From the NCBI GenBank assembly GCA_029856435.1, contig JAHQXB010000125.1:1-32693 (forward strand): DNA of 32,693 nucleotides, in the 5' to 3' direction. Under the pieces are notes generated by a model, which did no database searches, was not told where the DNA came from, and saw only the letters and a list, made by a program, of their open reading frames with translations. Shown here in pieces: positions 228-21,692 of the stretch. Each line of letters starts with the position of its first letter. The first letter of the stretch is position 1. The stretch is from Candidatus Jordarchaeia archaeon. GTDB taxonomy: Archaea; Asgardarchaeota; Jordiarchaeia; Jordiarchaeales; Jordiarchaeaceae. A program made the position numbers and the translations under genes.

Positions 228-1271
228 TCACGAAGTTTTCACGTCCAAAAACTTTTGGTCTTCGATTAACCGCATTAATCTTTTCAATCTTTCTTCGAGG
301 GGTGGGTGCTTTTTAAGTAGGGATTTATATTTTTTGAAAAGGTGCATAACCGCCTTGTTTTTTATCAGTATCCCGGAGTCGTCGGTATTTTCTGCTATTT
401 TAATTAGGGCTGATGCTAGGGCTTCCGGCTTCTTGGTGATGCGGGAGGAAACCATGTCTGCGAGAAATTCTCGTTCTCGGTAGATAGCGGACTCTATAAA
501 GTATCCGAGAGGGTTGTAGAACATAACTGCTCTGAGAAATGAGGATGCTTTTCTAACAAAGCCATCTCTATTCAGTATGTGAGCTGATTCGTGGCCCAAG
601 CAAGCTTCCAATTCCTCCTCGTCTAGTAGGTCGAGTAAACCGCTTGAAATAACTATGAGAGGTTTTTTCCTTCTATCATCTACAGTAAACACTATGGGTC
701 TCCCAAGCTTGAAAATGAAGAGTTCCGGTACAGGTATTTTCATCAGTTGGGCGAGTTTTTTAGTTATTTTTTTTATCTGGCTGTGGCTCGTAAAATTATT
801 ATTGTGTGTAGCGACGAGTTGGGATTTAAATAAATGGGTGCGGCTACCAAAAAGTTTTATTCCTTTGAACATGAAAACGAATACAAAACAAGCAACAACT
901 AGTTGGAAGCCGCAGTAAATTAAGAAATCGACACTTAATTTTTCAATCATTGGGGCAAATGAGTAGTTGTGAAGGAAAAAGTAAACTTGGAAAATTACTG
1001 CTCTTATAGGGAAAAAAAGAAGGGGTAGCAAAAGAGCGAAAAACCAAACCTTGGTTTTTATCGAGTAAGCGTCTTGTTTCACAATTTTACAAATGATAAG
1101 CGATATAAGGGGCATAGAAAGAACCAAACACACTAAAAATGATTGAATCATCTCGAGGGGCATAACAAATTGGTGATAGCCGAGCAGGAATTGGATATTG
1201 GTTTTTAGGGTTTCTTGAATAAATCTGACAATGAATTCTAATAGCTTAGAAAGTTCCTGAAACAGGTTCAT
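228..1271 (-). CDS. membrane-bound M56/M48-type zinc metallopeptidase (BlaR1-like)
   Basis: This is a 347-residue integral membrane peptidase. Hydrophobic segments lie at about residues 42-62, 76-98 and 115-137, followed by a cytosolic-type protease domain. The zinc site is HESAH at 227-231 (HExxH), and the likely third ligand is E268 in 'EREFLAD'. The ATG overlaps the stop of the upstream BlaI-like gene by ATGA, so the two are translationally coupled. In bacteria BlaR1/MecR1 peptidases of this type cleave or inactivate BlaI/MecI after sensing a beta-lactam outside the cell. No extracellular penicillin-binding sensor domain follows here; the protein ends about 75 residues after the third ligand. 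The sensed signal is therefore unknown. HtpX-like M48 quality-control protease is the alternative, but the BlaI neighbour favours a signalling role. Confidence 0.8.
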   Translation of the reverse strand: MNLFQELSKLLEFIVRFIQETLKTNIQFLLGYHQFVMPLEMIQSFLVCLVLSMPLISLIICKIVKQDAYSIKTKVWFFALLLPLLFFPIRAVIFQVYFFLHNYSFAPMIEKLSVDFLIYCGFQLVVACFVFVFMFKGIKLFGSRTHLFKSQLVATHNNNFTSHSQIKKITKKLAQLMKIPVPELFIFKLGRPIVFTVDDRRKKPLIVISSGLLDLLDEEELEACLGHESAHILNRDGFVRKASSFLRAVMFYNPLGYFIESAIYREREFLADMVSSRITKKPEALASALIKIAENTDDSGILIKNKAVMHLFKKYKSLLKKHPPLEERLKRLMRLIEDQKFLDVKTS

Positions 1272-1714
1272 TTATTAGACTCGCCCCTACTCCTTATCTT
1301 TTTTAGTTGTCTTTTTATTTCCTCTATCACCTCAGGGTTATTTAAATTTAGGTTTTCGAGCAAAAACATAATTGTGGGTTCCTCAAATGATTCGAAGAGC
1401 CCGCTGAGAACATTTCTTGCAACTAGCTCCTCAAATTCTTTCCTAGTAAGGGCAGGAGAATAAACATAGTATATCCCTCCCTCTCTAATGAGCTCCCTCT
1501 CCACAAGCTTTTTCTTATATAGCCTGTCCAGAATCGTAGCCACAGTGTTAAAAGCTACAGGTCTCCTAACTCTTATATCTTCGTGGATAGCTCGAACAGA
1601 AGCTTTTTTAAGCCTCCAAACAGTCTCCATCACTTCCGATTCTAGATCACCCAAAACCGTAGACAAATCCTTCTCATGGGGTTTGAATTCGTAAACTTTA
1701 GGTTCGTCAACCAA
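1268..1714 (-). CDS. blaI: BlaI/MecI/CopY-family winged-helix repressor
   Basis: The protein carries the winged-helix core of the penicillinase-repressor family: 'LGDLESEVMETVW', a recognition-helix region around 'FNTVATILDRLYKKKLVER', a wing with 'REGGIYYVYSPAL', then a helical dimerisation tail. Such proteins bind palindromic operators as dimers and are released when the partner M56 peptidase acts. I chose a TTG at 1714 because GGAGGGA (1730-1724) sits about 10 bases upstream. The frame stays open to another TTG at 1744, which lacks a Shine-Dalgarno and would add 10 residues. It is followed by the metallopeptidase with an ATGA overlap. The probable target is the divergent ABC operon, whose promoter has tandem palindromes; no matching site was found upstream of this gene itself. 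Confidence 0.85.
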   Translation of the reverse strand: MVDEPKVYEFKPHEKDLSTVLGDLESEVMETVWRLKKASVRAIHEDIRVRRPVAFNTVATILDRLYKKKLVERELIREGGIYYVYSPALTRKEFEELVARNVLSGLFESFEEPTIMFLLENLNLNNPEVIEEIKRQLKKIRSRGESNK

Positions 1715-2100
1715 AGTTATTCTTCCCTCCACTCTTTTAAACAAAAACGTGTAAAAAACTTAAGGGCAAATCAATTTTGTCCCCTCTTTCCCATTGGCAC
1801 AGCGTAATGGGAGTGTTTTTGCTCTGGGTAATACCTGTATATTCTTCTTGATTGTTGAGGGTGTAAAAGAGGTACAAGTTCTCACATTCAAATCCAAGAC
1901 TCGCTAGAAAAGCTGGATGAAACACTCCCATGCCTTCAAACAAAGCTCTTCACCCTTCTACTATTTTTATTTGGTGACTTAGGATATTAGTGGCTCATTT
2001 TGAGGCTGGTACTTAAATAGGCTTTAACAATACTCTTTGGGTTTGAGTGAGTTTAATTGGCTTTTTTGTTTTACCGTAATTTTTATATACCCACGCCGGA

Positions 2101-2110
2101 CATATAAATT
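2101..2110 (+). promoter_or_regulatory. TATA box of the ABC export operon
   Basis: CATATAAATT is an archaeal TATA-like element about 70 bases upstream of the first ATG at 2175. Transcription would start near 2130. A second, weaker element (TTTTATATAC) lies about 18 bases further upstream. Confidence 0.5.
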
Positions 2111-2111
2111 T

Positions 2112-2128
2112 AACTACGAAATGTAGTT
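2112..2128 (+). promoter_or_regulatory. operator palindrome 1 (BlaI-type half-sites)
   Basis: AACTAC-GAAAT-GTAGTT is a perfect 6-base inverted repeat with a 5-base spacer, immediately downstream of the TATA box. The ACTAC/GTAGT half-sites resemble the TACTAC...GTAGTA core of BlaI/MecI operators, whose spacer as I recall it is one base shorter. A dimer bound here would block transcription initiation. Confidence 0.6.
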
Positions 2129-2131
2129 TAT

Positions 2132-2146
2132 ACTACGAGCAATAGT
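2132..2146 (+). promoter_or_regulatory. operator palindrome 2 (BlaI-type half-sites)
   Basis: ACTAC-GAGCA-ATAGT repeats the layout of the first palindrome with one mismatch in the right arm. The two left arms are 19 bases apart (2113 and 2132), close to two helical turns, and the second site falls on the expected transcription start. Tandem sites suggest cooperative repressor binding. Confidence 0.5.
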
Positions 2147-2174: not shown

Positions 2175-2861
2175 ATGAAGAAAAACCCACTACTACTATT
2201 AATACTAGTACTAACCATAAGCCTGTCAATACCCCTACTAACAGCCCAAACCCAACAAGTCTACGCCCAACCCGTAAGCCACACATACACATTCACAGAA
2301 ACCGTACCCGGAGACCACACAAACGTTGAAGTAAATTTCACCGTGACCACCGACACCGGAATTCTACTAGAGGGCAACATAGCAGTATGGATCCTCAGAA
2401 TCAACGCCAAAAGTAGCAGCACCATAAATAACATAACCATTAACGGTGAGTCCAAAGGAACGAAAATAAGCCTAGGACTACTGCTACCACTTTCTGACGC
2501 CTTTTCCTCCGACACAAATATGACCCCACTACCCCCCCTCCGAAATAGCTTTACCCTTGCGAAGTCTGAAAACGTGTTATTATTTACAGGTATTGCGGGT
2601 CTCCCCGCTCAGATTTCATTTAATCTCAGCGTAACCATAGAACCTTCATCTGGAAGTCCGACGACTGTTTATTTGGCTAGTGACGTGCCAACGGTGTCTT
2701 TGATACTACCCAATCCGGGCAATGCTCCGCCGGTAATTAACTATTACCTCATATTATTGTACTCCATGGTTTTTCTTGTGCCTATATCGATGATTCTCTC
2801 AAATCGCTGGTTGAGGAATCGCAAAATGAAGAAAGAAGTAGTTGGAGGAGGTGCAGTGTGA
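2175..2861 (+). CDS. exported, membrane-anchored protein of the ABC operon (unknown function)
   Basis: This 228-residue protein has a classic signal peptide (MKKNP, then a long Leu/Ile-rich core ending near 'VYAQP'), an outside domain of about 150 residues rich in Thr/Ser with several N-x-T/S sequons (NFT, NIT, NLS), and a C-terminal membrane segment near 189-207 followed by the basic tail 'RWLRNRKMKK'. It is therefore a type I surface protein. The ATG has AAGGAAAAGGA upstream. It is the first gene after the twin-palindrome promoter, and the next gene starts one base after its stop. I do not recognise a family. Base use changes inside the gene: up to about 2500 the coding strand is A/C-rich, then G/T-rich. 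Its place in the operon suggests an accessory subunit of the exporter. Confidence 0.75.
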   Translation: MKKNPLLLLILVLTISLSIPLLTAQTQQVYAQPVSHTYTFTETVPGDHTNVEVNFTVTTDTGILLEGNIAVWILRINAKSSSTINNITINGESKGTKISLGLLLPLSDAFSSDTNMTPLPPLRNSFTLAKSENVLLFTGIAGLPAQISFNLSVTIEPSSGSPTTVYLASDVPTVSLILPNPGNAPPVINYYLILLYSMVFLVPISMILSNRWLRNRKMKKEVVGGGAV

Positions 2862-2862
2862 G

Positions 2863-3573
2863 GTGCGGAACAGAATTTTAGTTTTCCTTGTGGCACTCGC
2901 TGTGATTGTAGGCATAACTTCTGCGGTTTATTTCCAGGCAGAACCTACACCAACTTATCCCAACACCCCCTTTGTATTGTATTATCTTAAGTATGACTAT
3001 ACTGTGCAGAGTAACGGTACCGCTACTACAAGTGGGTTAACATCGAGTGTGGTTTGGTTTGAGGGTTACGCTGATCCAAACACGGTTGTGGTTGCTGAGA
3101 GAGACGGCTTTTCGCCAATTCAATATAGTGAGGTAAATCTTTACACGCGGGAAACAAATACCACTGGAGTGCACTTTCTGTGGTGGATTCCTCCCTGGTT
3201 GCCGATTGGGGCTCCTGTGAGCATAGGTAATAATACTGGTGTTATCGTGGGTGAAACTGAGTTAAAGGCGCAACAATTGGTGAGAAATACAAAGACGGCC
3301 TTTTATTCAGGGTCGGATAGAACTATTATCGCTAACTATGATACAAATAGTGGTTTTCTAATCCAGTTAGAAATCAAAGAAGGAGAAAAGATAAGCATTT
3401 ACCAACTGCAATCCACTCTCGGAGCTTCTCTTGGAGTCTCCAACTATTACTATGCGCGTGTAATCTTCCTATGCTTATTCATACCTGCCTTGGTGATTTT
3501 CATATTGACACTTCCTTGGCCTTGGAGAAGGTGGAGTCAGAGCTTATCTAAATTTCTAAGAAAGGAGGTTTAG
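2863..3573 (+). CDS. second membrane-anchored extracellular protein of the ABC operon
   Basis: The 236-residue product has an N-terminal membrane segment ('ILVFLVALAVIVGITSAVYF'), an outside domain of about 170 residues with several N-x-S/T sequons, and a C-terminal membrane helix ('IFLCLFIPALVIFILTL') followed by a basic, Trp-rich end. GTG at 2863 is the likely start: it lies one base after the previous stop with GGAGGAGGTG about 10 bases upstream. A TTG at 2842 would overlap the preceding gene. Both membrane ends place the central domain outside, like the preceding protein. I recognise no known family. It may form a complex with the preceding surface protein and the ABC permease. Confidence 0.7.
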   Translation: MRNRILVFLVALAVIVGITSAVYFQAEPTPTYPNTPFVLYYLKYDYTVQSNGTATTSGLTSSVVWFEGYADPNTVVVAERDGFSPIQYSEVNLYTRETNTTGVHFLWWIPPWLPIGAPVSIGNNTGVIVGETELKAQQLVRNTKTAFYSGSDRTIIANYDTNSGFLIQLEIKEGEKISIYQLQSTLGASLGVSNYYYARVIFLCLFIPALVIFILTLPWPWRRWSQSLSKFLRKEV

Positions 3574-3584
3574 GTGGCATCGGC

Positions 3585-4529
3585 ATGTTAGCTATCGAAA
3601 CAAAAAATCTAAAAAAGAGGTTCGGAAACTTTCACGCTCTAAGGGGAATCAACTTGGAAGTTGAGAAAGGAACCTGCTACGGTCTTCTAGGACCCAATGG
3701 AGCCGGAAAAACAACTACTATTAAAATCATACTGGGCCTGTTGTCACCAACAGAAGGCGAAGTCAAAGTTTTTGGGTACAAGGCGGGTTCATTCCAAGCC
3801 AGACAGAAAATAGGCTATTTGCCAGAGAGGGTAGGATACTATGCCCACGTTAAAGCCATTGACTTCCTGCGCTACATTGGAATCCTATCAAACATGTCAT
3901 CAGTAGACTTAGATGCCCGCGCAGAGGAACTACTGGAGTGGGTTGGACTCGGAGGTTGGGGTGAATCACCCATAGGTAATTTGAGTGCCGGAATGAAGCA
4001 GCGTCTCGGACTAGCTATGGCAGTAATGGGTGAACCCGAACTAGTGATTCTTGATGAGCCAACTAGTAATCTTGATCCTATAGGGAGAAGCGAGATACTG
4101 GAGAAAATAAAGGAGATAACTGAAGAGGGAAGAACTGTGTTTATTTCCAGTCATGTTCTTCCTGAGATCGAGGTTGTCAGCGACTACGTGGGAATTATTC
4201 ACAGAGGAGAAATGATAAAACAGGGCAAACTGAAAGACATAAAGAAGGCCGAATTGAGAAAAGGGAAGCACGACTACGAGCTCATTGTTGATAAACCCGA
4301 GGCGATTATTTCCGAGTTACAAAAGGCGCCCTTTGTTGCAAGTGTAACCCGAAGCGACGACCGCATACTCATAAAAGCAACAGATTTAGACCAATTGGGC
4401 CAGAACCTACCAAAAATACTAGTCGACGCAAAAGTTCAATTAGTCAAATTCGCCCCTCTGGGTGAAAGCCTCCAAGACATTTTCCTACAAATAATGGGGG
4501 AAACACAAAATGAGCAAAAAAAGAGTTAA
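3585..4529 (+). CDS. ABC transporter ATP-binding protein
   Basis: This 314-residue ATPase has Walker A GPNGAGKT (36-43), signature LSAGM (133-137), Walker B VILDEP (154-159) and an H-loop 'SSHVLPE' near 188. It follows the CcmA/NatA-type layout that works with ABC-2 permeases, with about 100 extra C-terminal residues. The Shine-Dalgarno AAAGGAGG spans the end of the previous gene. The 3' end overlaps the permease gene by 20 bases, so the two are translationally linked. It would power export of a lipid, peptide or drug; the substrate cannot be read from the sequence. Confidence 0.92.
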   Translation: MLAIETKNLKKRFGNFHALRGINLEVEKGTCYGLLGPNGAGKTTTIKIILGLLSPTEGEVKVFGYKAGSFQARQKIGYLPERVGYYAHVKAIDFLRYIGILSNMSSVDLDARAEELLEWVGLGGWGESPIGNLSAGMKQRLGLAMAVMGEPELVILDEPTSNLDPIGRSEILEKIKEITEEGRTVFISSHVLPEIEVVSDYVGIIHRGEMIKQGKLKDIKKAELRKGKHDYELIVDKPEAIISELQKAPFVASVTRSDDRILIKATDLDQLGQNLPKILVDAKVQLVKFAPLGESLQDIFLQIMGETQNEQKKS

Positions 4530-5556
4530 AACCAGAACGGTTCCAGAAAAACCAATAACAGTAGAGGAATCTTTAAGCGATAGAGCAGTCAACCTTTTAA
4601 ACCAGTCTATACGCCTCTGTTGGGAAGAAGTGAAAAACGCCTATAGGACAAAATCCTTCGTCGCCTTCGCTGCACTAATGGTGCTGCCCATGATAATAAT
4701 CCTCGTATCCTATGCAGTTACACAGTATCCCGACATGTTTAACCAGGTGCAAATCAGCCTATTCCTAAACGGCATATATGGAGAGGACGGAGCAATACTA
4801 ACCTTCAGAGACATTTTCGCAGGAACAATGGGCATAAGCACAGGACTCAGGGGTGGAATGGGCGGCTTTGCAACAATATACTACCTTGGGGTACCGATAA
4901 TCGCCATAGTAACAATTCTTACCTCCGGGATTATAGCTGGAGACCGCGAACATGGCACCCTACCCATATATGTCTCAAAACCAGTCTACAAAATTCAACT
5001 CGTTCTAACCAAGTTCTTGGGATTCGCTTTTATCAGCCTAATCTTAACCGGCCTAGTTTATTACACAATGTACTTCATATTTGCATTTTCTATCCTCGAA
5101 CCACTAGGAATACTAATGGAGGGCATAAGCTACACAATATACGTCCCAAACAATTTAACCATGGTAACCTGGCTTTTCATTTTAACAGTCGGCTCCGTCA
5201 CCACACTGTTCTCATCCATAATCGACCGCCCAATTCTTGCCGGCGTCATCGCCCTAATATATTTACTTGTTGTATCCTTCTTCTCAAGCTTCCTAATGTT
5301 TTTCCTAGGATCAATCGCCGACGCATTAAAATATCTTGACCTCGGGGGTTTAGCAACCAACATACTAAACGTAAACATTCTAGGATTCGAATACTACCAA
5401 GCAATATGGAACATAATCTCAAGCTTCGGCTTCATGGCACAACAACTACTAGGACAACTAGTAGACCCAACTACCGCCACCACAATACTAATCTCAATAT
5501 TACTTGTAACCCTCGGAGCAGCCTGCATAATAACACAGATACGCGAAGTAAAATAA
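4510..5556 (+). CDS. ABC-2 type transporter permease
   Basis: The 348-residue membrane protein has a soluble N-terminus of about 45 residues and then roughly six hydrophobic segments. The motif 'AGDREHGTLPIYVSKPV' is typical of ABC-2/NosY-like permeases at the cytoplasmic coupling helix. It overlaps the ATPase gene by 20 bases and ends the operon; a T-tract follows 14 bases later. With the ATPase and two surface-anchored partners it forms a complete exporter candidate. Members of this class move lipids, antimicrobial peptides or assembly factors; no substrate is evident. Confidence 0.88.
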   Translation: MSKKRVKTRTVPEKPITVEESLSDRAVNLLNQSIRLCWEEVKNAYRTKSFVAFAALMVLPMIIILVSYAVTQYPDMFNQVQISLFLNGIYGEDGAILTFRDIFAGTMGISTGLRGGMGGFATIYYLGVPIIAIVTILTSGIIAGDREHGTLPIYVSKPVYKIQLVLTKFLGFAFISLILTGLVYYTMYFIFAFSILEPLGILMEGISYTIYVPNNLTMVTWLFILTVGSVTTLFSSIIDRPILAGVIALIYLLVVSFFSSFLMFFLGSIADALKYLDLGGLATNILNVNILGFEYYQAIWNIISSFGFMAQQLLGQLVDPTTATTILISILLVTLGAACIITQIREVK

Positions 5557-10138: not shown

Positions 10139-10195
10139 ATAATTACATACAGTTCGTTTATTTATAATTCGTAAACTTTTGGAGTGTTAAATACT

Positions 10196-11194
10196 ATGAG
10201 CCTAAATTTTGGAGAAGGAGTAGATAGGGTCAGAATTAGGGTTTTAACAGAAAATACAACTGATATTACCCTTCTAACAGATGAAAAATTTAGGGACAAA
10301 GTTCAGCAGCCGGGAGCTTCCACACTGTTGTGTATGGCGGAGCATGGTTTGGCACTGCTTTTTGAGGTAACCAAGAACAGTTCCACGCACACATTCTTGA
10401 TGGATGCTGGAGGACTAATAGGCTCCATAGCCAACAATATGAAATTTCTTCAGGTTGACTCAAAAAAGATTGAAAAATTCATTCTCTCACACGGGCACTT
10501 TGACCATTTCGGAGGGCTGAACCATATTATTAACCAATTTTCTACAGGGACCGAAATCATAACATCTCAAAACGCTTTTCTCCCCAAGTGGGCTCTCACA
10601 GGCGATTTATCAGGTAAACAAATCCAACTCGATAAAGAAAAATTGGAACAATTACAGAGGGAACAAAAAATTAGACAGCTGCCCGGTATTAATAGGGCTC
10701 TGTTTGATGAACAAATAAAGAACAATAATTTAAAACTTATCGAAACTAACAAGCCGGTCCAGTTGGCTCCGGGAGTTTGGACTAGCGGTGAAATAGAAAC
10801 TTCAATAAAAGAGGAGTTAACTGCTGGATTGTACGTTCAAAAAAATGGAGAAATTCTTTTTGACGACTTTAGAGATGAAATATCAGTAATTATTAATGTT
10901 AAGAATAGGGGACTGGTTATTCTCACAGGATGCGGACACACGGGAATAATGAATACTGTAAAAATGGCCCAAAAACTGTCAGGGATTGACAGAGTCTACG
11001 CCTTAATCGGAGGCTACCACATGAATTGGGCAAGCGAGGAACAAATCAAAAGAACTATAGACTTTCTAAAAAAATTAAAGGCAAAAGTTCTATGTGCTAT
11101 GCACTGCAGTGGATTTAGATTTACAGCGCGTATGATGAACGAGATTCCTGAGGCGGCAGTTCAGGGAATTGTGGGAACCGTTTTCAATCTATAG
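10196..11194 (+). CDS. MBL-fold metallo-hydrolase (COG1237 type)
   Basis: The 332-residue protein has the metallo-beta-lactamase signature HGHFDH (His99, His101, Asp103, His104), a second metal motif 'TGCGHTG' and a late 'AMHCSGF' His. It matches the COG1237 group, often labelled a dihydropterin-methyl-ribofuranosylaminobenzene-phosphate synthase, a methanopterin-type name that I would not accept without proof. ATG at 10196 has GGAG 11 bases upstream; an earlier GTG at 10184 overlaps that site. It is monocistronic, and an ArsR-type regulator converges on it. The substrate is unknown. Confidence 0.85.
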   Translation: MSLNFGEGVDRVRIRVLTENTTDITLLTDEKFRDKVQQPGASTLLCMAEHGLALLFEVTKNSSTHTFLMDAGGLIGSIANNMKFLQVDSKKIEKFILSHGHFDHFGGLNHIINQFSTGTEIITSQNAFLPKWALTGDLSGKQIQLDKEKLEQLQREQKIRQLPGINRALFDEQIKNNNLKLIETNKPVQLAPGVWTSGEIETSIKEELTAGLYVQKNGEILFDDFRDEISVIINVKNRGLVILTGCGHTGIMNTVKMAQKLSGIDRVYALIGGYHMNWASEEQIKRTIDFLKKLKAKVLCAMHCSGFRFTARMMNEIPEAAVQGIVGTVFNL

Positions 11195-17161: not shown

Positions 17162-18412
17162 TTATGGTGGGGCTCGAAACAAGTAGACTTTGACTTCCTC
17201 TCCTTCTTCGATGAATTGTACTTCTGATCCTATCTCTATGTATCCCTGCGACAGGGCTAGTGTAGTTATGGCTTCGGAGCCTGTAGGAACTGGATAAGCT
17301 ACAAGCTTTTCTTTTTCCAGTTGAAGTCGGACTGGTTGGAAATTTAATCTTCCCCTTTCAGAGTAAATTCTCTTTCCAGTTACTGCTTTGACTTGTGGTC
17401 TACTGGTGGGAGGGAGGCCTGCCCACCTTCTAATTTGTGGGTCTACAAGAGTGTAGTATACCATAAGTGCCGATGTGGGGTATCCAGGTAACATAAAGAC
17501 TGGTTTTCCATTGTATGCTGCTACTGCTGTTGGTTTTCCTGGTTTTATTGATATTCCATGTATCAGAAAGTCTGGTTTGCTCACCTCACTGAGTGCTGTT
17601 GGCACGGTGTCGCCTGGACCCTTTGAGGTTCCTCCCGAAAATATGGCAATATCCGCGTTTACTAGGGAGTATTTAATGGATTTTATTAATTCCTCTTTAT
17701 CGTCTGGTATGATCCCCCTATATATGGGGGATCCGCCTGATTGTTTGACGGCTTGTGTTATGGTGACTGAGTTAATGTCGTAGATTTTTCCGTATTCCAG
17801 TTTAGAGCCTGGAGTTATTATTTCGTTTCCGGTGCTGGCGACTGTCACCAATGGTTTGGAGTAAACATTTACTTCTGTAACGCCGGTTGCCGAGATTACC
17901 CCCAAATCTTGGATGCTTAGCACGGTTCCTTTGCTCAATATTTTCTGCTCTTTTCTTATGTCGCGGCCGATTTTAACCACATTCTCCTCGGGAGACACAG
18001 GTCGGTAAATTCGCACTTGGTCATCTTCCTCCTCGGTGTACTCTACCATTACAACAGCATCCGCGCCTTCTGGTATGGGTGCTCCTGTGGCTATTTTAAC
18101 GCATCCACCTTCTTCTACGTGTAGATTACTCTTTTCTCCCGCTTTTATTTCTCCCAAAATTCTCAGAATTTTCGCCTCCTCCTCTTCCGCCCCGAAGGTG
18201 TCACTTGCCCTAACTGCATACCCATCTCTTGCGGCTCTTTGAAAGTGGGGTACATCAATTGGTGAAAAGAAGTCTTCAGCAAGAACTCGCCCCAAAGCCT
18301 CATTTATGCTAATTTTTTCAATTTTCCTCTTTATGCTTATTTTGGACAAGGCTTGAATCACGTCTTGGAGAGAAGTTGTGGTGTAAAAACTCTTCTTAGC
18401 TTCCTCTCTCAT
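17162..18412 (-). CDS. moeA: molybdopterin molybdenumtransferase MoeA, second paralog
   Basis: The 416-residue MoeA inserts molybdate (or tungstate) into adenylylated molybdopterin. Domains: MoeA N-terminal (1-170), MPT-binding (175-315, 'TGNEI', 'SGGTSKGPGD', 'KPGKPTAVAAYNGKPVFMLPGYP'), C-terminal beta-barrel. In the active-site motif the usual SAMDGYA reads 'AARDGYA', so Met is replaced by Arg62 while catalytic Asp63 stays. GAGGAGAC precedes the ATG. It starts 14 bases after the other moeA. Two MoeA copies in archaea are often explained as separate Mo and W handling; the substitution hints that this one may be specialised. Confidence 0.92.
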   Translation of the reverse strand: MREEAKKSFYTTTSLQDVIQALSKISIKRKIEKISINEALGRVLAEDFFSPIDVPHFQRAARDGYAVRASDTFGAEEEEAKILRILGEIKAGEKSNLHVEEGGCVKIATGAPIPEGADAVVMVEYTEEEDDQVRIYRPVSPEENVVKIGRDIRKEQKILSKGTVLSIQDLGVISATGVTEVNVYSKPLVTVASTGNEIITPGSKLEYGKIYDINSVTITQAVKQSGGSPIYRGIIPDDKEELIKSIKYSLVNADIAIFSGGTSKGPGDTVPTALSEVSKPDFLIHGISIKPGKPTAVAAYNGKPVFMLPGYPTSALMVYYTLVDPQIRRWAGLPPTSRPQVKAVTGKRIYSERGRLNFQPVRLQLEKEKLVAYPVPTGSEAITTLALSQGYIEIGSEVQFIEEGEEVKVYLFRAPP

Positions 18413-18426
18413 TCTTTGTCTCCTCT

Positions 18427-19683
18427 TTACACTACGATGTGGGGGAAAAGGGCAACTCTTACAATTTCCCCCTCATTTATACCCTCCACATTTTCTGGAA
18501 TTTCCACAATTCCATCGGCGTTTACCATACTACTTATTACCCCTGAACCGCCTACCCTTATGGGCAATGCTAGTACGCCCTCCCGGGTTTCCTCTATTTT
18601 GACGCGGACAAAATCCCGTCTGCCCAGAGTTGAAGCAACTTTCTTGGACATCTTTGCCTCAACAAATATGCGGGGATCCAGTTTTTCGGCTCCCAGCATT
18701 TTTCTTATGGTGGGCGCAACAAAGACTGTAAAGGCGATCATGGTTGCCACCGGATAGCCTGGTAGACTAAAAATTGGTTTACCGTTGAGGAATGCGGCAG
18801 CCGTAGGACTCCCCGGCTTCATAGCCACTCCGTGAAAAATTAACTCCCCCCTCTTTTTTAGAAGATCTGGAGTGTAATCATATTTTCCCACTGAGGTTCC
18901 GCCTGAAAAAACTCCCATATCATATTTTAAGACTTCATCTATGGCCTTTTCAAGCTCTTCCGGTCGGTCCGGGTATATCCCAAGAATCTTAGGTTCGCCA
19001 CCATAGACTCTCACAAGAGAAGCCAGGGTATAACTATTGGTGCAAACAACCTTTCCCACATCGGGAGTAGTGTAAATATCAACAAGTTCGCTACCGGTGG
19101 AAACAATTGCTACTTGAGGTTTTTTCGTCACCTTGACTTCCGTAATTCCACATTGTAGGAGCATTGCCTCCTCTTGGGGTCTTACCTGTTTACCACTACT
19201 TATAATTTTTTGACCCATTTTCACATCCTCTCCAACCCTAGAAATGTTTTGGCCGGGTGTTACCGGACTGTAAACTTCTACCTCATCATTGATACGCTTA
19301 GTGTATTCAACCATAACTACGGCGTCAGCCTCTGGAGGTATAGGGGCTCCGGTAGCGATTTGAGCCGCCCACCCCCTAGACACTTTAATGCTGGGCGGTC
19401 TTCCCACAACCACTTCCCCTACCACCTTGAGTTTGATGGGATTATGCTGGCTGGCGCCGAAGGTGTCCCGTGCTATCACGGCGTAGCCATCCATAGCAGA
19501 CCTATCAAAGTGTGGAATATTTCTCGGAGAATAAATATCCTCATAGATTATTCTTCCCAAAGATTCTGTTACCGGAATTATCTCCGGCTCTAACCTCTTA
19601 ATTCTGCTGATTATCCTGTTTAGCGCTTCATTAACTAGGGTGTACTCAGCAAAACCTCTCATACGAGTGCTGAACTCATCCAA
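18427..19683 (-). CDS. moeA: molybdopterin molybdenumtransferase MoeA, first paralog
   Basis: A 418-residue MoeA with canonical 'SAMDGYA' (Asp65), 'GAPIPPEADAVVMVEYT', 'SGGTSVGKYDYTP' and 'KPGSPTAAAFLNGKPIFSLPGYP'. It begins at a TTG two bases after the moaB stop, with AAGGAGG nine bases upstream; an ATG at 19662 is the fallback. It is the third gene of moaC-moaB-moeA-moeA. This copy is closer to the textbook active site than its neighbour and probably does the main metal insertion. Confidence 0.93.
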   Translation of the reverse strand: MDEFSTRMRGFAEYTLVNEALNRIISRIKRLEPEIIPVTESLGRIIYEDIYSPRNIPHFDRSAMDGYAVIARDTFGASQHNPIKLKVVGEVVVGRPPSIKVSRGWAAQIATGAPIPPEADAVVMVEYTKRINDEVEVYSPVTPGQNISRVGEDVKMGQKIISSGKQVRPQEEAMLLQCGITEVKVTKKPQVAIVSTGSELVDIYTTPDVGKVVCTNSYTLASLVRVYGGEPKILGIYPDRPEELEKAIDEVLKYDMGVFSGGTSVGKYDYTPDLLKKRGELIFHGVAMKPGSPTAAAFLNGKPIFSLPGYPVATMIAFTVFVAPTIRKMLGAEKLDPRIFVEAKMSKKVASTLGRRDFVRVKIEETREGVLALPIRVGGSGVISSMVNADGIVEIPENVEGINEGEIVRVALFPHIVV

Positions 19684-19684
19684 A

Positions 19685-20245
19685 CTACTTTTCCTCCTTG
19701 GAGTCTTTGGAAATTTTAGTTTTCATGTGGCTGATAATATGTTCTATTTCTGGAAGAATTAAACTGGTGAGGGCAGTGTGCACGGCGTTAGGTGATCCCG
19801 GTAAACAAAAAATCACCGCACCTTTATAGGTTCCCGCCTCGGCCCTAGTTAACATGGCGGCTGTCCCAATATCCTTGTAGCTCTCGAATCTGAAGATTTC
19901 CCCGAATCCAGGTATCCTCTTCTCAAACAGGGGAGTAATGGTTTCTATGGTTACATCTCTGGGTGAGAGGCCGGTTCCTCCGCTGGTTATTATTACCAAT
20001 ATTCTCCTTCCTACAAATTCGTTAAGAGATTTAATTATGAGTTGGGGTTCGTCAGGAACGATAGAAACTGAAGCCAGCTTGTGGCCCGCTTCTTCTATTA
20101 GCTTCCTCGCTATGGCGGTTGTTTCATCAGTGCTTTTTGCGCCAGTTTGAATTTCCCGGTAGCGTGTATCGCTGATCACTATTAATCCAAAGTCTAGAGT
20201 CCCAACTGGTACTCTGTGTTTTTCATGGGTGCTTTTGGGTTTCAT
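19685..20245 (-). CDS. moaB: molybdopterin adenylyltransferase MoaB
   Basis: The 186-residue protein has the MogA/MoaB signature 'TSGGTGLSPRDVTIETI' and 'FCLPGSPNAVHTAL'. Archaeal MoaB adenylylates molybdopterin to prepare it for metal insertion by MoeA. ATG at 20245 has AAGGTAGAG upstream and overlaps the 3' end of moaC by 23 bases. An N-terminal stretch of about 15 residues is basic and unconserved. It is part of the same operon as both moeA genes. Confidence 0.93.
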   Translation of the reverse strand: MKPKSTHEKHRVPVGTLDFGLIVISDTRYREIQTGAKSTDETTAIARKLIEEAGHKLASVSIVPDEPQLIIKSLNEFVGRRILVIITSGGTGLSPRDVTIETITPLFEKRIPGFGEIFRFESYKDIGTAAMLTRAEAGTYKGAVIFCLPGSPNAVHTALTSLILPEIEHIISHMKTKISKDSKEEK

Positions 20246-20711
20246 GTTGTTCTCTACCTTGACTATTTTTTGTTGGCTGTTTAGTTTTACTCACCACCCT
20301 AATTTCCTCTATTTCTGTGTCGGGGTACTGTCCTTCTTGGTCTTTTTCGTAGGGTTTAACCATGTCCCAAACTGTGAGTAGGGCAACAGAAGTTGCAACA
20401 AGTGCCTCCATTTCTACGCCTGTTTTGGACAACGACTGTACTGTGGATTCTACTGTAACCGTACTATTTCCAACAGAGATTTGGACATCAACTTTGGTTA
20501 TTGGAATAGGGTGACATAAAGGTATTATCTCTGGGGTTTTTTTGGCTGCCAGAATACCCGCTATCTGGGCAGTGGTGACGACATCACCCTTCCCCAAAGT
20601 TTTTTCCCTAATTCTTTGGATAGTTTCAGGCTTAAGTTTGATGGCGCCTCTCGCAGTTGCAATACGCAGAACATCTTCTTTACCACTAATGTCGGCCATA
20701 TCAATACTCAA
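20223..20711 (-). CDS. moaC: cyclic pyranopterin monophosphate synthase MoaC
   Basis: A 162-residue protein with 'ATARGAIKL', 'GKGDVVTTAQIAGI', 'LCHPIPITKVDV', 'KTGVEMEALVATSVALLT' and 'WDMVKPYEKD', the full set of MoaC motifs. It makes cyclic pyranopterin monophosphate with MoaA, which is not in this window. I start at TTG 20711 because GGAGGAT lies nine bases upstream; ATG 20699 is the alternative. It leads the moaC-moaB-moeA-moeA operon, divergent from mobB. The last 15 residues are Lys/Gln-rich and overlap moaB. Confidence 0.93.
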   Translation of the reverse strand: MSIDMADISGKEDVLRIATARGAIKLKPETIQRIREKTLGKGDVVTTAQIAGILAAKKTPEIIPLCHPIPITKVDVQISVGNSTVTVESTVQSLSKTGVEMEALVATSVALLTVWDMVKPYEKDQEGQYPDTEIEEIRVVSKTKQPTKNSQGREQHETQKHP

Positions 20712-20820
20712 AATGTTCCATCCTCCATATACGCCTCTTAAACCTAGAAAACCATAACATCAGTTAAATAAAAAGTATTCTAACGCCCTTTTATTATATT
20801 TCACTTAGATTTTTGAGGAA

Positions 20821-20868
20821 AATGGTTATCCTTTTATTGAGAAGAGGTTATTACGTTTAATAACCATT
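20821..20868. promoter_or_regulatory. three-half-site GGTTAT operator array between moaC and mobB
   Basis: GGTTATTA-CGTT-TAATAACC (20846-20865) is a perfect 8-base inverted repeat. A further direct copy, AATGGTTAT (20821-20829), lies 22 bases, two helical turns, upstream and is itself an exact reverse complement of ATAACCATT (20860-20868). It ends about 42 bases before the mobB start and lies in the shared divergent region, so it may control both directions. The bound regulator is unknown. Confidence 0.5.
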
Positions 20869-20909
20869 AAAGTTTCGATTGCAGGTAATTCTAAGTTGGG
20901 AGGAATAAT

Positions 20910-21692
20910 ATGATTTTCCAAATAGTTGGCTACCAGAGACACGTGGGCAAAACGTCTACAGCGGTTAGTTTAATTCAAGAGTTTAAAAAGAGAGGGTTTC
21001 GAGTTGCCGCCATAAAACATTCTCACAAATATGACGTCAGCCAAGACACTAGGGGAGCGCTGGGCTCGAAAGACACGGAAAGATATTTGGAGGCGGGGGC
21101 AGATGTTTGTGGAGCGATTACAGATAGCAGCCTAGTTTTGATAACTCCCGAAAATTCTCTTAATTGGGCCTTAAATATGGTGGCTCCCTTTTCTGACATA
21201 GTAATTTTGGAGGGATTCCGAGAGGAGCGCCGTCCAAGAATAATCGTGGCGGAATCAGCAGACCAATTTTTTGAGCTCTATGTTGAAAACCTAGTGGTGG
21301 CGGTCACTGGCGTTATCGCAGAGAATGAGAGCGAAAAAGAGAAGGTTAAGGGGGCTTATCCTAATATCCCCATAGTTTCTAAAGCATCAGAGTTAGCTGA
21401 TCTTTTACTCTCCAGATTTGTGGATGAAGTGATTAGCCGGCTAGAAAAGAAAACTTGTGCGGTGTGCGGTTATCCAAACTGTGACGAATACGCCAAAGCA
21501 CTAATAAGGGGAGAGGCCAAGCTATCCGCATGTCCTCAAAATGTGGCTCAAACAGTTTTATATGTTAATAACAAGAGAATTGCCATTAATCCCTTCGTAC
21601 AGAGAATTATCAGCGCCACAATTCAAGGAATGCTATCCACTCTAAAAAACATAGACAAACTCGAGAACATTTCTATCCACATAAAAAGTTGA
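20910..21692 (+). CDS. mobB: MobB-type GTPase with C-terminal Fe-S cluster domain
   Basis: The first 165 residues are MobB, which assists molybdopterin-guanine dinucleotide formation: P-loop 'GYQRHVGKT' (7-15), 'VAAIKHSHK' and 'VILEGFREERRPRI'. The C-terminal 80 residues add Cys183-X2-Cys186-X4-Cys191-X16-Cys208 in 'CAVCGYPNCDEYAKALIRG', which is the pattern of the small 4Fe-4S domain seen in corrinoid/CODH and RnfB-type proteins (PF04060-like). Bacterial MobB has no such domain. A GGAGG lies 7 bases upstream. It is divergent from the moa/moe operon. A likely inference is redox or substrate-protein docking of cofactor delivery to anaerobic Mo/W enzymes. Confidence 0.88.
   Translation: MIFQIVGYQRHVGKTSTAVSLIQEFKKRGFRVAAIKHSHKYDVSQDTRGALGSKDTERYLEAGADVCGAITDSSLVLITPENSLNWALNMVAPFSDIVILEGFREERRPRIIVAESADQFFELYVENLVVAVTGVIAENESEKEKVKGAYPNIPIVSKASELADLLLSRFVDEVISRLEKKTCAVCGYPNCDEYAKALIRGEAKLSACPQNVAQTVLYVNNKRIAINPFVQRIISATIQGMLSTLKNIDKLENISIHIKS

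Follow-up and report, generated by a model that had tools for sequence, protein, structure and literature searches.

A BlaI-like repressor and a membrane zinc peptidase are encoded by overlapping genes in an Asgard archaeon of the Jordarchaeia (Jordarchaeum group), and together they probably constitute a one-component, protease-controlled derepression switch of the BlaI-BlaR1 kind, which would answer to a signal other than beta-lactams and act on a divergent ABC exporter operon and a gene for a six-TM membrane protein. The gene pair lies at positions 228-1714 of the window, that is, of the whole 32,693-nucleotide stretch of DNA analyzed here.

The repressor and peptidase genes

The pair consists of the following genes:

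228..1271, minus strand: membrane zinc peptidase, 347 aa; three predicted TM helices, gluzincin core of cytosolic type with HESAH...EFLAD, C-terminal HPPLEER; no sensor domain
1268..1714, minus strand: BlaI/MecI-family winged-helix repressor, 148 aa, with a TTG start (PF03965, PDB matches, alignment)

The preliminary description of this DNA proposed a BlaI-like repressor and a membrane zinc peptidase (HESAH, ExxxD) whose genes overlap by ATGA, and open reading frames, motifs and Pfam profiles all agree with it. The blaI gene overlaps the peptidase gene in exactly this tetranucleotide, and the Penicillinase_R, Peptidase_M48 and Peptidase_M56 profiles all score above cut-off. The mechanically called BlaI frame opens upstream, at TTG 1744; we placed the start at TTG 1714 because the N-terminus MVxKPxVYEFKPHEKDLS is conserved in an alignment of five species. 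The repressor is full-length for its family, comprising both the winged helix and the dimerisation region (PF03965, 74.9 bits against a cut-off of 22.6, positions 1-114 of 115), and carries a conserved N-terminal extension of ~25 aa. In the PDB, the best matches of its profile include MecI and BlaI. Asn101-Phe102, the cleavage site of Staphylococcus aureus BlaI, shows no conservation in the alignment. The BlaI tree has too little support to tell inheritance from transfer.

Between blaI and the operator described below, only two genomes (G000 and G003) have ~250 extra bases. This gap contains a 68-aa frame (window 1737-1943, minus strand), similar in the two genomes and shifted in the relative L003, which is probably a gene remnant.

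A peptidase between the M56 and M48 families

The assignment of the peptidase to M56 held in part: Peptidase_M56 (PF05569) is matched with 35.8 bits against a cut-off of 31, but Peptidase_M48 (PF01435) scores higher, with 65 bits. HESAH occupies residues 227-231 (codons at window 579-593, minus strand) and EFLAD residues 268-272. As a motif, HESAH stands for the window only, the close relatives L003, L004 and L005 having HELAH. The catalytic set thus comprises HEXXH at 227, D at +9 (236) and E at +41 (268), with no TM hairpin between them. Three predicted TM helices lie N-terminal to the zinc domain, and the TM scan found no hydrophobic segment past residue 134, that is, the fourth TM helix of BlaR1 is missing. 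An HP motif is located at residue 322, and the C-terminal KKHPPLEERLKRL is an M48-type HPxxxER. Because a BlaR1-type spacing of 41 is joined here to an M48-type HPxxxER without a further TM helix, the protein reads in sequence as a mosaic of an M56 core spacing and an M48 C-terminus. Orthologues are 59-92% identical (91-92% in L003, Candidatus Jordarchaeia archaeon; about 60% in L004). The peptidase and the protein of operon gene 2 were modelled with AlphaFold from shallow alignments, and both models have low confidence (pLDDT about 45 and 44).

No penicillin-binding domain had been seen in the peptidase, and Pfam confirms this, detecting neither a transpeptidase nor a beta-lactamase domain in a protein that stops at residue 347; the NCBIfam BlaR1 model gives 19.5 bits against a cut-off of 1200.

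With HtpX (M48B) the peptidase shares the M48 profile match and HPxxxER. However, NCBIfam HtpX models score it at no more than 90 bits, far below all of their cut-offs (245-422), and its HEXXH-E spacing is 41, as opposed to 72 in L121, one of two HtpX-like paralogues (L121 and L120) encoded elsewhere in the same genome. L121 itself reaches up to 223 bits with the HtpX models, likewise under cut-off. Given these scores, the spacing and the separate paralogues, a housekeeping HtpX was ruled out.

The divergent ABC operon and its tandem operator

Upstream of the pair, on the opposite strand, the following features were recognized:

about 2082-2089, plus strand: second TATA candidate, TTTATATA (from sequence)
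2101..2112, plus strand: TATA-like box CATATAAATTTA, directly 5' of the operator (from sequence)
2113..2127, plus strand: operator dyad 1, ACTAC-GAAAT-GTAGT (pattern scan, cross-species alignment)
2132..2146, plus strand: operator dyad 2, ACTAC-GAGCA-ATAGT, 19 bp from dyad 1
2175..2861, plus strand: operon gene 1, 228 aa; N-terminal signal/TM and C-terminal TM; no Pfam family
2842..3573, plus strand: operon gene 2, 243 aa; a TM helix at each end; no Pfam family
3585..4529, plus strand: ABC exporter ATPase, DrrA-like (PF00005, 107.8 bits; DrrA1-3_C)
4510..5556, plus strand: ABC-2 type permease (PF12679, 56.3 bits)

The true start of operon gene 2 is probably near 2863. Orthologues of operon gene 1 were found in L003, L004, L037 and L082, and the ATPase matches TIGR01188 with 227 bits, under the model cut-off. 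The tandem operator, two copies of ACTAC-N5-RTAGT, directly follows the TATA-like box and ends 28 bp before the ATG of gene 1 (2175-2861); an AT-rich box abuts the operator at all ten aligned sites. Among the four species G000, G001, G002 and G184, half-site identity at the ABC operon is 95% and spacer identity 37%, and in L004 the half-sites are likewise kept and the spacers changed. The exporter had been named as the likely output of the pair, and this conserved operator at its promoter strongly supports that proposal at the level of sequence. Single dyads, allowing two mismatches, occur 16 times in the window against 9.6 expected, which is near chance.

Two other loci of the window were noted. 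A metallo-beta-lactamase-fold protein (10184-11194, plus strand) has no operator dyad nearby and no visible link to the BlaI switch, and a molybdopterin cluster (17162-21692) comprises two MoeA, a MoaB-like protein, MoaC and MobB.

A probable two-locus regulon in the genus

A whole-genome scan with at most two mismatches placed the tandem operator at two loci and no others in all of four genomes (G000, G001, G002 and G003), and a reversed control pattern gave zero matches in the same scan; two mismatches is the limit of this approach, as at three the control matches about as often as the true pattern. Both sites are also present in G184, which belongs to another family by its label and could represent a Jordarchaeia contig binned there. 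The two loci are the divergent ABC operon and an orthologous gene for a six-TM membrane protein. At the latter, the operator lies directly 5' of a gene whose 241-244-aa product has five to six predicted TM helices (5/5 genomes examined) and belongs to no Pfam family. The half-sites at this second locus are 97.5% identical and the spacers 35% (G000, G001, G002 and G184). Two dyads are the rule there, and a single species has three or four in 19-bp steps (G002:C289:5710-5780, L078).

Each Jordarchaeia genome encodes only one full-length BlaI, and one of its two operator sites adjoins blaI. No clear dyad was found at the blaI promoter in Jordarchaeia. Judging from the operator sequences, BlaI most likely controls the neighbouring ABC exporter and one six-TM membrane protein.

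Distribution in archaea

Among 393 genomes of Asgard and other archaea, mostly MAGs, 26 have a strong BlaI match, and the peptidase gene directly follows blaI in 22 of them; the pair is partial in two more (a fragment in G254, a contig end in G138). In the two genomes of family f58, blaI (L107 and L117) has no accompanying peptidase gene and adjoins replication factor C genes. The expected conservation of the neighbourhood was thus borne out for the pairing of repressor and peptidase, but not for the ABC neighbour, which is missing outside some lineages. The labels Loki-like, Thermococcaceae-like and Korarchaeota (probably the phylum of G359) are our own inferences.

The divergent arrangement seen in Jordarchaeia recurs in two groups, which adds to the case for the exporter as output. 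In the Loki-like genomes G160 and G147, the BlaI-peptidase pair faces genes for a small PLDc_N protein, an ATPase and a permease. Of 29 genomes from the phylum of G359, 7 have BlaI; in every one of these, the peptidase gene adjoins blaI and an ABC ATPase operon occupies the other strand. Exact TACTAC-N5-GTAGTA occurs in four of these seven, only at the blaI and ABC promoters and hence twice per whole genome. In the PLDc_N-ABC operon of both G359 and G398, just one CTAC-N5-GTAG dyad is found after the TATA box.

In the Thermococcaceae-like genomes, the BlaI-peptidase pair has a dCMP-deaminase-like gene as neighbour and no ABC exporter (L104-L106, L108, L109, L111, L113, L115 and L116, with an M48 peptidase), and several other archaeal pairs likewise lack an ABC neighbour. 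The Thermococcaceae-like pair is a possible tractable relative of the switch. A divergent BlaI and M56/M48 pair with other neighbours was found in an Asgard genome of another family (L085:556-1804). Finally, two contigs in Asgard bins (L080 and L081, in G138 and G053) carry bacterial-looking BlaI-BlaR1 genes with long BlaI branches next to an RND pump; they are probably contamination and were left out of the archaeal evidence for the ABC link.

Comparison with known systems

Like BlaI-BlaR1 and MecI-MecR1 of S. aureus, the archaeal system encodes a repressor together with a membrane gluzincin in a single operon that diverges from the gene under control, and it has the same catalytic set, the same H-E spacing of 41 and dyad operators. 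In S. aureus, the catalytic residues of BlaR1 are H201, D210 and E242, and BlaI is cleaved directly by BlaR1 (PMC9834060). Unlike BlaR1 and MecR1, the archaeal peptidase lacks a class-D beta-lactamase-like sensor, the fourth TM helix and a recognisable autocleavage loop, and the archaeal system has an M48-type HPxxxER, an archaeal TATA promoter and an ABC exporter as output. The equivalent of thermolysin His231 is present in ZMPSTE24 and absent from BlaR1, whose autocleavage loop lies there (PMC9834060).

Sensor-less BlaI and M56/M48 pairs were also found on bacterial plasmids of Meiothermus, Priestia, Streptomyces, Mycolicibacterium and Paenibacillus. BlaI-BlaR of Mycobacterium tuberculosis is a further sensor-less pair of repressor and peptidase. 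As in the archaea, blaI in the five plasmid pairs is directly followed by the gene for a peptidase (284-314 aa) with a spacing of 41 and no large sensor domain; in contrast to the archaeal protein, all five peptidases have a further C-terminal TM helix and none has the HP motif, and none of the pairs lies opposite an ABC exporter. Sensor-less BlaI-M56 pairs are common in bacteria, and the archaeal switch is therefore of an already known kind. What is new is the archaeal operator with its two-locus regulon, the mosaic peptidase, and the recurrence of an exporter as output in Asgard archaea and in a further archaeal phylum. No archaeal BlaI-peptidase switch is described in the open-access literature that we searched (one library).

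The closest experimental parallel is BlaI_0696 of Clostridium thermocellum, which recognizes inverted repeats 5 nt apart, in two copies per target, at three operons (PMC8457756). The repeat spacing, the paired copies and the small regulon are shared with the archaeal switch, whereas BlaI_0696 is bacterial, has the half-site GTCTAT and regulates its own blaI-blaR1 operon.

Proposed mechanism and alternative explanations

We propose that one dimer of the BlaI-like repressor would sit on each tandem dyad immediately 3' of the ABC operon's TATA box, and that BlaI would also occupy the second operator, ahead of the gene for the six-TM membrane protein. Bound BlaI would block transcription; repression, which we infer in preference to activation, fits the position of the operator downstream of the TATA box, its dyad form, the small regulon and the protein family. 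The membrane part of the peptidase would then sense a disturbance of the envelope, whereupon its cytosol-facing zinc domain would, by analogy with BlaR1, cleave BlaI and allow the exporter and the six-TM protein to be made. Sequence comparison supports the assignment to protein families, the operators and a regulon of two loci; removal of BlaI by its peptidase is proposed by analogy, and the inducing signal would presumably come from the envelope. An output made up of an ABC-2 exporter and a membrane protein suggests a membrane-active compound as signal, and the disturbance would most likely be caused by a compound, membrane-active or amphiphilic, that is then removed by the exporter.

Another explanation keeps BlaI as repressor of the exporter and attributes its release to a small ligand or a different protein, with the peptidase as a co-transcribed HtpX-like quality-control protease. 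The M48 score above that of M56, the M48-type HP motif and the peptidase-less BlaI of one archaeal family (f58) are compatible with it, but the two genes are adjacent in at least 22 of the 26 archaeal genomes with strong BlaI and at all five bacterial plasmid loci, the genome has separate HtpX-like paralogues, and in its HEXXH-E spacing the peptidase agrees with BlaR1 and not with HtpX. We therefore regard release by a ligand as unlikely. The probability is lower still, and small, that the tandem dyads belong to another dimeric regulator and that BlaI controls something else. Such a separation would explain a Jordarchaeia blaI promoter with no clear dyad, and BlaI is tied to the operator through sequence; on the other hand, one of the two genomic sites adjoins blaI, the motif resembles bacterial BlaI-family operators, and in the second phylum the same dyad stands at the blaI and ABC promoters and nowhere else.

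Two readings borrowed from bacterial relatives fare worse. The best NCBIfam match of BlaI is CopY_TcrY, which might point to a CopY-type metal-responsive repressor controlling metal export, although its 45 bits are far under the cut-off of 122. CopY operators are RNYKACANNTGTMRNY (PMC7253601). By residue count the window BlaI contains no cysteine and therefore has no C-terminal CxC metal site, and the output consists of an ABC-2 exporter rather than a P-type ATPase; metal sensing of this type is very improbable and was rejected. A true beta-lactam response acquired from bacteria would account for a repressor and protease core homologous to BlaI and BlaR1, but the sensor domain is absent, the pair is conserved in several archaeal lineages, and the PF00905 transpeptidase, detected in 10 of 14 control genomes, is missing from all four genomes of the genus. 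This reading was rejected as having almost no likelihood, in line with the original suggestion that the pair does not sense beta-lactams.

Implications

Beyond the protease-controlled BlaI switch itself, a broader and more doubtful proposal can be made, namely that it is an archaeal envelope-defence switch, present in Asgard archaea and at least one other phylum, in which a protease intermediate between M48 and M56 would directly sense membrane attack or the state of the exporter and destroy BlaI. If this were true, beta-lactam receptors in bacteria would have specialised late from a more ancient switch for an exporter. Envelope-to-transcription signalling is hardly known in archaea, and especially in Asgard archaea; the circuit proposed here is complete and testable, comprising a single repressor with its membrane protease, a defined operator and two loci as targets. 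That a second archaeal phylum repeats this operator logic suggests that BlaI switches under protease control are in general use among archaea, and the archaeal pair may show what role BlaR1-type switches have without a beta-lactam sensor.
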